This document shows positions 17,874-59,453 of a stretch of DNA of 64,000 nucleotides, in pieces. The translations under genes and the position numbers were made by a program. The notes beneath the pieces were generated by a model, which was not told the origin of the DNA, searched no databases, and worked only from the letters and a program-made list of their open reading frames with translations. Source of the DNA: Flavobacterium cauense R2A-7 (lineage in GTDB: Bacteria; Bacteroidota; Bacteroidia; Flavobacteriales; Flavobacteriaceae); the NCBI RefSeq assembly GCF_000498475.1, contig NZ_AVBI01000019.1, forward strand, positions 186,001-250,000, read 5' to 3'. Numbering within the stretch: position 1 is the first letter of the stretch; each line of letters starts with the position of its first letter.

Positions 17874-18511
17874 TGGAAACAGAAGAAGCATTGATAAGCG
17901 CTTTTAATACTTACGATTTTATTGTAAGATCTGCTATTGATTTTATAGCGGTGGCGTTGCTTGTGGGGTTTATTTACTATCCGAAACACAGAAATAAAGA
18001 TTTTATTTTCACTTTCATTTTGTTTAATGTGGTGAATTTTATGATCTGTTGTTTGCTTGGTGCGGTTAAAATAAAAATCGGATTTGCATTCGGACTCTTT
18101 GCCATGTTTTCGATAATCCGATACCGAACGATAGCCATTTCCATAAAAGACATGGGGTATTTTTTCGTTTGCGTGGCAATGGGAATGCTTAATTCGCTTG
18201 CTTTTGTAGATGATAATTACACGATACTTATTATTTGCAACATTGTTGTATTGTTTCTGACGTTTATTTTGGAACGTTTGGATTTTCTGAAAAATGAAAA
18301 TGCAAAAGAAATAGTTTATGATAAGGTTGAACTGATAAAACCCGAATACCGAGAACAGCTGTTATACGATTTGAATGAAAGAACCGGGTTAAATATTCAC
18401 AGAATTGAAGTGATTTCCATTGATTATTTGAAAGATACAGCGCTTTTAAAAGCATTTTATTATGCAAAAGAAAGCGAATACGTTTTACCAACCTCAGATG
18501 ATAATGATTAA
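17873..18511 (+). CDS. DUF4956 membrane protein
   Basis: A 212-residue protein with four predicted helices (about residues 18-37, 43-62, 66-85 and 95-135 as a pair) and a cytoplasmic C-terminal domain of about 70 residues. Its start overlaps the stop of the VTC-domain gene (TAATG), so the two are translationally coupled. DUF4956 genes are typically found next to VTC-domain genes. By analogy with Vtc1-type membrane subunits it may form the channel or anchor for polyphosphate. That function is inferred, not shown. Confidence 0.8.
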   Translation: METEEALISAFNTYDFIVRSAIDFIAVALLVGFIYYPKHRNKDFIFTFILFNVVNFMICCLLGAVKIKIGFAFGLFAMFSIIRYRTIAISIKDMGYFFVCVAMGMLNSLAFVDDNYTILIICNIVVLFLTFILERLDFLKNENAKEIVYDKVELIKPEYREQLLYDLNERTGLNIHRIEVISIDYLKDTALLKAFYYAKESEYVLPTSDDND

Positions 18512-19220
18512 AAAAAGGCATTTTTTTTTATTATTCGTATTTATGTTCGCTTATGAAGGAATCAGTCAGAATTACACTGATTTTCAGGGACGTTTTATAC
18601 CTTCAATAAACTACAGAATCAATAAAAAATGGAAAATTGCAGGGGAATACAGGTATTCCTTGCAAAAAGATCTTCAGGAATTCCGATCAAGCGCGGGGCA
18701 GCTTCAGCTTCAGTATGATATCAACAAAAAGTTTAGTATTGAAACAGGATATCGATTTACAACCTCTTTTAAAGAAGACAACCATCGTTTGTTTGCCGCA
18801 TTAAAATATGATTATAAGTTTAGTGATTTCACGCTGTTTTCGGGTATAAAATATCAGTTTTCAACCGGTAGTTTCGATAGCAGGTATATGAATTATTACA
18901 AAGAACCCAGACAAATGCTTCGGGAAAAAATCGGATTGGATTATAATATTCCCAAATCGAAAGCTTCAGTTTATACTTCGGCAGAAATATTTTTGAAATT
19001 AGCCGATGATGACCCGATAAAATTCAACCGGATGCGATATACCGTTGGAGGCGATTATAAATTAAAATACGGTAATGCTTTCGGTTTGTCTTTGTTTTAT
19101 GACGATAAAGTGAATCCGAGAAAAAATGATCGCTTCGTGTTGGAAACCAAATATTCGCTTTCTGTTGACGATCTGATGAAAAAAATCAAAAAGAATAAGG
19201 AGAAAAAAGCAGAAGAATAA
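18504..19220 (+). CDS. DUF2490 outer-membrane protein
   Basis: A 238-residue exported protein. The start is ATG 18504 (MIKKRHFFLLFVFMFAYEGISQ, a normal signal peptide), overlapping the DUF4956 gene by 8 nt; an upstream in-frame ATG at 18462 would put an odd 14-residue extension before the signal. The mature part is made of alternating amphipathic strands (WKIAGEYRYS, FSIETGYRFT, FTLFSGIKYQF), typical of a small beta-barrel of the DUF2490 class. The position as last gene of the VTC operon suggests an outer-membrane partner of the system, but this is inference. Confidence 0.75.
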   Translation: MIKKRHFFLLFVFMFAYEGISQNYTDFQGRFIPSINYRINKKWKIAGEYRYSLQKDLQEFRSSAGQLQLQYDINKKFSIETGYRFTTSFKEDNHRLFAALKYDYKFSDFTLFSGIKYQFSTGSFDSRYMNYYKEPRQMLREKIGLDYNIPKSKASVYTSAEIFLKLADDDPIKFNRMRYTVGGDYKLKYGNAFGLSLFYDDKVNPRKNDRFVLETKYSLSVDDLMKKIKKNKEKKAEE

Positions 19221-56941: not shown

Positions 56942-57250
56942 ATGATACATACATATAACTACGCGAGTGTTTCCAAGGCTTTACAAGAACTCAAAGAGTT
57001 GGGTTTTGTCTATGATTTTAATGTAAATGACAGCGAATTTAAAAGTAACCCGCATGATTTTGAAATTGTTCACATTTATCGTTACGAAGGAGATTCCAAT
57101 CCCGACGATGAAGCAACGGTTTACGGAATACGTTCTAAATCAATGCAAGATAAAAAAGGAGTATTTGTATCCGGTTTTGCTGCCAATTCAGAAAGTGCTT
57201 CCGCCCGTTTCTTAATCGGACTTTCGATCAAATCAAGAAGAGGATTGTAA
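56942..57250 (+). CDS. small protein of unknown function, first tandem copy
   Basis: A 102-residue protein, [20 protein letters not shown]. It shares an order of motifs with the next gene: an N-terminal helix, GF.YDFN, an [21 protein letters not shown] core and a C-terminal [17 protein letters not shown]. Homologues in Flavobacteria are sometimes labelled phosphoribosylpyrophosphate synthetase, but 100 residues and no PRPP loop make that untenable. The function is unknown. Confidence 0.75.
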
Positions 57251-57289: not shown

Positions 57290-57592
57290 ATGGCTCACAC
57301 TTATCATTATGCAACGGTTTCAGAAGCACTGGACGAATTGAATGAAAATGGTTTTACCCATGATTTCAATATTCATGAAAATGAAATCGTAGCGCATCCT
57401 GAAAACTTTGAAATCATTCACATTTACCGCTACGAAGGCGATACCAATCCGGATGATGAAGCAACGGTTTATGGTATTAAATCGTTGAAAAGCGGTAAAA
57501 AAGGTGTTTTTGTAACCGGTTTTGCTGCAAATTCAGAAAGTGAAGCCGCCAAAATTCTCATTGATCTTTCCATAAAAAGAAACCAGAAATGA
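57290..57592 (+). CDS. small protein of unknown function, second tandem copy
   Basis: A 100-residue paralogue of the preceding gene (39 nt away), with the near-identical core [20 protein letters not shown] and GFAANSE. More than half of the residues match by eye. A tandem duplication kept with two intact frames suggests related but non-identical roles. The charged, conserved core could bind a ligand or metal, but no activity can be named. Confidence 0.78.
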
Positions 57593-57677: not shown

Positions 57678-59453
57678 ATGGAACAATTCGTTGTATCAGC
57701 CCGTAAATACAGACCCCAAACGTTTAAGGACGTTGTTGGGCAACAGGCTATTACCAATACTTTACTGAATGCCATAGAAAGTAATCACCTTGCTCAGGCG
57801 CTGTTATTTACAGGTCCGCGTGGTGTTGGAAAAACGACTTGTGCGCGTATTCTCGCTCGAAAAATCAATCAGGAAGGTTATGATGATCCGTATGAGGATT
57901 TTGCGTTCAATGTATTTGAATTGGATGCGGCTTCCAACAACTCGGTTGATGATATCCGTAATCTGATTGATCAGGTTCGTATCCCGCCACAAACCGGCAA
58001 ATACAAGGTTTATATTATTGACGAGGTGCACATGTTGTCTCAGGCAGCTTTCAACGCTTTCCTGAAAACATTGGAAGAACCCCCACGTCATGCGATTTTC
58101 ATATTGGCGACTACCGAAAAGCACAAAATCATTCCAACGATTTTATCGCGTTGTCAGATATTTGATTTCAAGCGAATTACCGTTAAAGATGCTAAGAATC
58201 ATTTGGCGGAAGTAGCTGCTAGTCAGAACATCACTTTTGAAGACGATGCTTTGCATATTATTGCGCAAAAAGCCGATGGTGCGATGCGTGATGCCCTATC
58301 GATATTTGATCGTGTGGTTTCGTTTTGCGGAAGTAACTTAACCCGTCAGGCGGTAACGGAAAACCTGAACGTACTTGATTTTGAATACTATGTGAAAGTC
58401 ACCGATTTGATTCTGGAGAATAAAATTCCCGAATTATTATTGGCTTACAACGATATTTTGGCAAAAGGTTTTGACGGACATCATTTTGTTTCCGGATTGG
58501 CTTCGCATTTCAGGGATTTATTGGTTTCTAAAAATCCTGCAACCTTAGTTTTATTGGAAGCCGGAGAACACGCCCAGAAATTGTATTATGATCAGGCACA
58601 AAAAGCGTCACAGGAGTTTCTTTTGCAGGGAATCAATATTGCCAACGAATGTGATTTAAAATATAAAGTATCGCAAAACCAACGTCTTTTAGTTGAACTT
58701 TGCTTAATGCAGCTTGCCTCTATCACTTTTGATGGAGAAAAAAAAAAAGCTGAGTCCTTTATAATTCCACCTACTTATTATCGAAATTCCGGTTATTCGA
58801 TTACCGAAGTAAAACCTAAACAAGTACTTCCGGTTGAAAATAGCCAACCTGTAAATGTTGAGAAGGAAATTCCAAATGGGTTTGAAATTTCAAACGATGT
58901 TAGTACAACACCAACTATTGTTGAAATTCCTCAAATTGTACAAACTGTTGTTACGGAAATTAAACCGGCAGTACAATCGGAACCAATCATCGGAACCAAG
59001 GTTTCTGCTTTGTCGTTAGCTAGTATTAAGGCGAAACGGGAGTTGGAAGCGTCACAGAAAGCAACTGTTAAACATCATGACGAATTGCCGAAAGAGCCTT
59101 TCACCGAAACCGACATGCTGTTGCAATGGACCAATTTTGCTCAGAAATTGAGTGATAAAGGGCAAAAAATCATGGCTACCTATATGCTTATCAATGATCC
59201 TACTTTAGAAGGGACAACAATTAAGTTAGAATTGCCCAATGAAGGTTCAAAAGTTGATTTTGACGCCAACAAAAATGAATTATTAGGCTATTTGCGAGGA
59301 AAATTACACAATCATGATATCATTATTGATGTACATGTAAACGAAGTGACGGAAACCAAATATGCCTTTACCCCAATTGAAAAATACGAAAGACTGAAAA
59401 CAATTAATCCTGCTATGGAATTGTTACGCAAGACGTTTGATTTAGATATTTAA
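57678..59453 (+). CDS. dnaX: DNA polymerase III subunits gamma/tau DnaX
   Basis: Clamp-loader ATPase, 591 residues. AAA+ domain I with Walker A GPRGVGKTT (K52), Walker B IIDEVHML, sensor 1 ATTEKHKI and SRC arginine finger in TILSRCQIFDF; domain III ends near residue 350. The zinc-binding cysteines found between Walker A and B in E. coli are absent. A tau-specific region with a Pro/Val-rich linker (~375-480) and a C-terminal domain follows. At residues 355-357 three Lys codons lie in an A11 run, a probable slippage site making a short gamma form. Confidence 0.96.
   Translation: MEQFVVSARKYRPQTFKDVVGQQAITNTLLNAIESNHLAQALLFTGPRGVGKTTCARILARKINQEGYDDPYEDFAFNVFELDAASNNSVDDIRNLIDQVRIPPQTGKYKVYIIDEVHMLSQAAFNAFLKTLEEPPRHAIFILATTEKHKIIPTILSRCQIFDFKRITVKDAKNHLAEVAASQNITFEDDALHIIAQKADGAMRDALSIFDRVVSFCGSNLTRQAVTENLNVLDFEYYVKVTDLILENKIPELLLAYNDILAKGFDGHHFVSGLASHFRDLLVSKNPATLVLLEAGEHAQKLYYDQAQKASQEFLLQGINIANECDLKYKVSQNQRLLVELCLMQLASITFDGEKKKAESFIIPPTYYRNSGYSITEVKPKQVLPVENSQPVNVEKEIPNGFEISNDVSTTPTIVEIPQIVQTVVTEIKPAVQSEPIIGTKVSALSLASIKAKRELEASQKATVKHHDELPKEPFTETDMLLQWTNFAQKLSDKGQKIMATYMLINDPTLEGTTIKLELPNEGSKVDFDANKNELLGYLRGKLHNHDIIIDVHVNEVTETKYAFTPIEKYERLKTINPAMELLRKTFDLDI
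58738..58764 (+). promoter_or_regulatory. dnaX A11 slippage site with stops in both other frames
   Basis: Eleven consecutive A occupy 58738-58748. A -1 shift (or one extra A) reads AGC TGA with the stop at 58751-58753. A +1 shift (or one lost A) stops at TAA 58762-58764. Either way translation ends right after the clamp-loader domains, giving a protein of about 358-361 residues. Confidence 0.7.

Follow-up and report, generated by a model that had tools for sequence, protein, structure and literature searches.

In Escherichia coli, the gamma subunit is produced from dnaX by -1 ribosomal frameshifting at an A-rich stretch of lysine codons. In Thermus thermophilus, transcriptional slippage on a run of nine A's (A9) in dnaX has been reported (Larsen et al. 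2000; PMC1088944, PMC5009743), and, according to PMC5009743, altering one nucleotide can be enough to exchange the dnaX product that depends on frameshifting for the other. Across 12 genera, Antonov et al. (2013; PMC3711429) counted 17 dnaX genes split into two ORFs, nine of which contain 10 A's, and proposed slippage for them; two-ORF A10 dnaX genes are thus already known, and the species set of that report may include flavobacteria. The same report takes orthologues shifting in both directions to point to transcription. In the Roseiflexus IS630 element, polymerase slippage is described as driven by a stem loop that immediately precedes the tract (Penno et al. 2015; PMC5009743). Among the open-access papers retrieved on dnaX slippage, frameshifting and realignment, none deals, judging by title and abstract opening, with the hairpin described here or with swaps within Flavobacterium or Bacteroidota.

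We analyzed a 64,000-nucleotide stretch of the genome of Flavobacterium cauense R2A-7 (hereafter, the window). The dnaX gene in the window resembles that of T. thermophilus in that it contains an A-run, encodes tau as one ORF, and has nearby stops in both other frames, and in that gamma is proposed here to come from slipped products. It differs from the Thermus gene in the length of the run (11 A's instead of nine), in a hairpin flush with the run on its 5' side, in the opposite default product of most of its relatives, and in that slippage is proposed here from sequence. These relatives, in which the default frame leads to gamma (gamma-first genes), are similar to the genes of Antonov et al. 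in that they consist of two ORFs, mostly with A10, and would produce tau by recoding; unlike those genes, dnaX of the window is one ORF (tau-first), and both states occur within one genus. As in E. coli, gamma would be obtained by a frame switch at an A-rich Lys stretch in a genome with a single tRNA-Lys anticodon, whereas here no 3' stem-loop signal was found, no usable Shine-Dalgarno stimulator is expected, the tract is longer, and the hairpin lies on the 5' side. The position of the stem loop, next to the slippage tract on its 5' side, and the terminator-like geometry are shared with Roseiflexus IS630, which, as described in the source cited above, differs in having a T5C5 tract in a transposase gene with deletion of one C, in contrast to A10–A11 in a chromosomal replication gene with mostly an insertion needed.

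The dnaX gene and its A-run in F. cauense

The ORF at positions 57678–59453 (forward strand, 591 codons plus stop) was identified as dnaX by comparison with NCBIfam, Pfam, and PDB. It matched NF011531, the DnaX equivalog model, at 710 bits (cut-off, 685), and its PDB matches were DNA polymerase III gamma/tau. The default product in this species is tau; the gamma and tau parts are in the same frame of one ORF. The clamp-loader model TIGR02397 stops at residue 346, and the A11 tract that we propose as the slippage site (58738–58748, forward strand, codons 354–357) begins eight residues later in codon 354, with codons 354–358 reading GAA AAA AAA AAA GCT. An A-run of at least nine is therefore present between the clamp-loader domains and the tau part, and it encodes Lys-Lys-Lys directly past these domains. 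The tau-only C-terminal part (58749–59453, forward strand, 234 codons plus stop) is out of frame in most relatives.

Both other frames are closed early. A -1 shift at A11, which corresponds to an mRNA with one additional A, reads AGC TGA and ends at the TGA at 58751–58753 (forward strand), giving a predicted gamma of 358 residues; an early stop in this frame is conserved. A +1 shift, which corresponds to an mRNA lacking one A, reads CTG AGT CCT TTA TAA, that is, four sense codons followed by the TAA at 58762–58764 (forward strand). This TAA lies within the tau-frame Ile codons ATA ATT, closes a predicted gamma of 361 residues, and is the counterpart of the gamma stop in most gamma-first relatives. 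The initial annotation had described an A11 run at the end of the clamp-loader domains, an immediate TGA after a -1 shift, a stop after five codons for a +1 shift, and a normal frame continuing for 234 residues. These readings were reproduced, with four sense codons counted before the TAA. Just upstream of dnaX, two adjacent small ORFs (56942–57250, 102 aa; 57290–57592, 100 aa) resemble tandem paralogues.

The dnaX A11 was the sole coding-strand run of at least nine A's in the 47 ORFs of the window (55 kb), compared with a mean of 7.4 (range 3–11) in synonymous shuffles, which indicates that such runs are avoided elsewhere in the genes of the window. In 114 kb of the genome's genes, two coding A-runs of at least nine were seen against 14.1 expected, and two T-runs of this length against 2.84 expected. 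Coding A-runs of at least seven were also depleted relative to synonymous shuffles in the window ORFs and other genes of the genome, and T-runs were not. AT-richness was rejected as the cause of the dnaX run since A-runs are depleted in genes. The whole 3.1-Mb genome contains nine distinct runs of at least 11 A's or T's, dnaX included. Six of the remaining eight have no overlap with any ORF of at least 80 aa; the seventh is within a 93-aa ORF of spurious appearance, and the eighth sits at the 5' end of a 285-aa ORF, the true start of which is probably downstream of the run. A T9 run was observed at 18521–18529, inside the ORF at 18462–19217.

Reading frames and stops in related genomes

We searched 150 genomes of the genus and obtained the dnaX site from 143 (144 loci, one genome being represented twice); seven genomes (G031, G101, G116, G122, G127, G131, and G149) were excluded owing to fragments, weak matches, or none. 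Two loci (L192 and L207) were too short, leaving 142 usable loci. The run was A10 in 137, A11 in four, and A12 in one, and therefore had a length of at least 10 in all 142. Interruption by a synonymous G, for which the initial annotation had suggested inspecting close relatives, was found in none of the 142 runs, whereas AAG occurred at other conserved dnaX Lys columns in 2–22% of the genus loci. Nearby stops, the conservation of which in Flavobacterium had likewise been raised there, closed both non-tau frames within 17 nt past the run in 141 of the 142 loci, compared with 11% of control positions in the same genes. In a first family set, both frames were closed within 17 nt in 24 of 29 loci and within 26 nt in all 29 (control at 26 nt, 24%). 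The first of the two Ile codons that make the +1 TAA was ATA in 131 of the 142 genus loci; ATA is uncommon among the Ile codons of the N-part (618 of 3982).

Another possible reason for keeping the tract is a need for a Lys-rich linker in tau, with the short form incidental; the three Lys residues just after the clamp-loader domains agree with this. AAG would serve equally well in a linker, however, and no run was broken by it. The linker is already contradicted by the synonymous constraint on codons 348–356 described below, and it accounts neither for the early stops and the ATA bias nor for the hairpin and the gamma-first genes of the genus; we regard it as very improbable.

In 130 of the 142 genus loci, dnaX consists of two ORFs, with the default frame leading to gamma (357–361 aa) and tau in another frame. 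Since tau is not encoded in one frame at these loci, a frame switch at the run would be needed there to produce it. The remaining 12 loci, including the window, are tau-first; nine of them keep A10 and have the frame altered by indels beside the run, and two others, L009 and L218, carry independent A11 runs. The programmed gamma switch put forward in the initial annotation is thus supported by the relatives, while the polarity of the window, tau by default, is found in only a minority of the genus loci. Another 80 named loci, largely from the same species group, agreed with these results except for A9 in L055 (Flavobacterium davisii) and L100 (Flavobacterium sp. YO12), which possibly represent assembly errors. 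In L055, the tau part has returned to the first frame even though the run is followed by a stop.

The two nearest relatives of the window (L011 and L012) have A10 and are gamma-first. Judged from these sequences, dnaX of the window looks like a gamma-first gene that recently gained one A, provided that this A is not an assembly error. Homopolymers are error-prone, and, with both nearest relatives in the A10 state, the eleventh A might be such an error or a population variant in a strain that is really gamma-first. The 11 other tau-first loci of the genus, two with independent A11 runs and nine with indels outside the run, indicate that tau-first genes are real, and we consider an erroneous or variant eleventh A unlikely. 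The switch site is intact with either A11 or A10.

A dnaX match was found in 128 of 129 family genomes. We took 111 family loci from outside the genus, with 17 further tau-first genomes not included, and 109 were usable (L242 and L399 were too short). The run was A10 in 90, A11 in 14, A9 in four, and A5 in one (L440); hence, it was at least nine in 108 of the 109 loci, and L440 has lost it. By default frame, 21 loci were gamma-first and 87 were tau-first, and L447 was unassigned. An additional A (or a -1 ribosomal shift) is needed in 18 of the 21 gamma-first loci, and the opposite direction is needed in three (L253, L432, and L436). On a quick tree of 249 sequences with the site excluded, the fewest default-frame changes were 24 overall and seven within the genus; because the support filter collapsed nothing, the count of 24 rests on this tree without a support cut. 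Outside the family, a run of at least nine was present in 21 of 25 order loci with a dnaX match, in all five class loci outside the order, and in six of 20 loci from other classes, the phylum sample giving loci from only part of its 41 genomes. L280 and L281, from the smallest genomes of the order sample (approximately 0.3 and 0.6 Mb), have no A-run of at least eight near the site; in L280, only a gamma-length frame (345 aa) was present, and the tau part was not found.

In the 151 gamma-first loci of the genus and family, the tau frame was open for a median of 223.5 codons past the run and was closed a median of 5 nt upstream of it. Five of these regions ended before a stop, and one complete tau frame (L195) was shorter than 180 codons. 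ATG was present within the first 15 tau-frame codons in one of the 151 loci, and ATG, GTG, or TTG in six. With the tau frame closed just upstream and start codons rare, most gamma-first loci would have to enter this frame at the run or immediately beside it. Alternatively, tau in these relatives may not be a fusion at all, the downstream ORF being re-initiated separately or decaying, as the close overlap of the two ORFs might suggest. Re-initiation was rejected because of the rarity of start codons. Decay is at odds with the tau frame staying open and with eight tested pairs, the tau parts of which diverged mainly at third codon positions, as would be expected of translated sequence; this alternative therefore seems highly unlikely. 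A programmed gamma/tau switch in dnaX, at the level of either the polymerase or the ribosome, appears, all the evidence considered, to be very likely.

A hairpin on the 5' side of the run

An 8-bp hairpin, CUCUAUCA-CUUU-UGAUGGAG, occupies positions 58718–58737 of the window (forward strand; 5' arm, 58718–58725; loop, 58726–58729; 3' arm, 58730–58737) and is flush with the A-run. The fold of the 20 nt before the run in the window by itself gave a z value of only -1.5. Within the N-terminal coding part, synonymous variability reached its minimum in codons 348–356, at 0.20 of the expected value in the genus (140 sequences; median, 0.86; lowest elsewhere, 0.54) and 0.36 in the family (29 sequences; median, 0.90; lowest elsewhere, 0.73). 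Hairpin codons were also low individually in the genus, with 0.06 for Ile349 (0.52 expected) and 0.12 for Gly353 (0.63 expected).

The stability of the 27 nt upstream of the run was compared with synonymous shuffles in 108 loci (107 from the family and the window). The mean fold was -6.78 kcal/mol, compared with -3.13 kcal/mol for the shuffles, and the hairpin was stabler than the shuffles in 101 loci (p<0.05 in 69) and no stabler in seven. The mean difference was -3.65, compared with a control mean of -0.16 (sd, 0.30; lowest, -1.5; 105 control windows). When 36 loci sharing one 19-nt hairpin sequence were removed, 65 of the remaining 72 were still stabler, 33 of them at p<0.05. Pairing in a fixed register was examined in 57 distinct sequences. 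Standard pairs made up 72.4%, compared with 67.0% in shuffled and 39–55% in slid registers, a modest excess that is partly explained by some genera pairing in a shifted register. Double-change cells numbered 32 against 18.7 in the shuffles; none of 500 shuffles reached the covariation score, and 30 of 500 reached the number of pairs showing a double change. RNAalifold predicted no consensus pairs in the 57-row alignment. Given the modest fixed-register counts, the case for the hairpin leans on the synonymous-shuffle test.

In the genus, at least seven of the eight pairs were kept in 125 of 142 loci and fewer in 17; the stem directly abutted the run in 129 of the 142 loci, and in the family it lay within 2 nt of the run in 96 of 108. 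Such a stem loop immediately before the tract was consistently present within the family only. In the order, class, and phylum samples it was not consistent, though the run was common there, and the claim is accordingly limited to the family. The signal named in the initial annotation, the A-run, holds, but it was drawn too small, since a conserved hairpin adjoins the run on its 5' side.

Level of the switch and its consequences

The loci keep A10–A11 runs, close both non-tau frames, have a flush 5' hairpin, and have changed their default frame repeatedly. In the mechanism that we propose, one dnaX gene would give two proteins, gamma (clamp-loader domains only, about 358–361 aa) and tau (591 aa). 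With a transcription hybrid of 9–10 bp, as given in PMC5009743, RNA polymerase at the end of the tract would hold a hybrid consisting entirely of rA:dT. The nascent hairpin at its upstream edge would loosen this hybrid in the geometry of an intrinsic terminator with A replacing U, and a share of the transcripts would gain or lose A's. In F. cauense, the unslipped A11 mRNA would be translated into tau and A10 or A12 mRNA into gamma, and in the gamma-first A10 relatives the slipped A11 mRNA would give tau. Because slipping would give both products in any template phase, a single indel could swap the default and the alternative with neither lost. The whole chain, a programmed frame switch with RNA polymerase slippage as the main level and the nascent hairpin aiding it, is in our judgement probable. 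The deletion caused by the Roseiflexus hairpin, where an insertion is mostly called for here, weighs against this chain. The three family gamma-first loci that need the opposite direction were counted for the polymerase level, as was the lack of a 3' structure signal: no excess stability was detected downstream of the run with five window settings over the 108 loci (mean z, -0.05 to -0.25), and a downstream stimulator was rejected.

The switch may instead be ribosomal, through a slip on AAA codons (a -1 shift at A_AAA_AAG or A_AAA_AAA, or sliding on poly-A), with the hairpin acting on translation or being incidental. UUU was the only tRNA-Lys anticodon among the 46 tRNA genes found in the genome, and the argument made for Thermus, that two lysine tRNAs favour polymerase slippage, was therefore rejected here. 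E. coli likewise has only tRNA-Lys UUU, and there the ribosome does the shifting. A G follows the run in 135 of the 142 genus loci, which creates A_AAA_AAG in A10 gamma-first genes, and the -1 direction of a ribosomal shift fits the 18 family gamma-first loci noted above. The avoidance of coding A-runs but not T-runs is more easily explained by a cost of poly-AAA to ribosomes than by polymerase slippage, which would act on both bases; together with the UUU-only lysine anticodon, it may leave room for ribosomal slipping. Against this, seven nucleotides suffice for a -1 shift, yet 10 A's are kept, and the window has no in-frame A_AAA_AAG of the E. coli type but reads A_AAA_AAA followed by GCT. 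Furthermore, a downstream stem-loop signal is lacking, and three lineages need the opposite direction. A ribosome on the tract is expected, from the size of its footprint, to cover and melt the 3' arm of the hairpin.

Published reports bear on both sides. Iterated AAA is reported to make ribosomes slide (PMC4363877), and a hairpin located upstream has been reported to reduce -1 shifting (PMC6321510). A GGAG adjoins the run upstream in the window and is substituted in several genera; Shine-Dalgarno pairing is described as unused by Bacteroidia ribosomes (PMC9976891), which makes stimulation of this kind unlikely. We regard a ribosomal switch as possible but doubtful.

As to polymerase slippage, we lean slightly towards reading the Flavobacteriaceae dnaX site as a terminator-like slippage module composed of the hairpin, a hybrid-length A10, and stops in both frames, the default of which would have been swapped at least 24 times with neither product lost. 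The hairpin and A10 together form a concrete, testable signal. From the frames, a simple gene caller is expected to report a gamma-length dnaX with tau out of frame in most Flavobacterium genomes. The role of the short clamp-loader subunit gamma has long been debated, and the maintenance of the switch site throughout the family despite repeated default swaps argues that both forms are selected. If the module reading is true, selection would be maintaining gamma as a product in the whole family, and the site would offer a natural experiment on the gamma:tau ratio.
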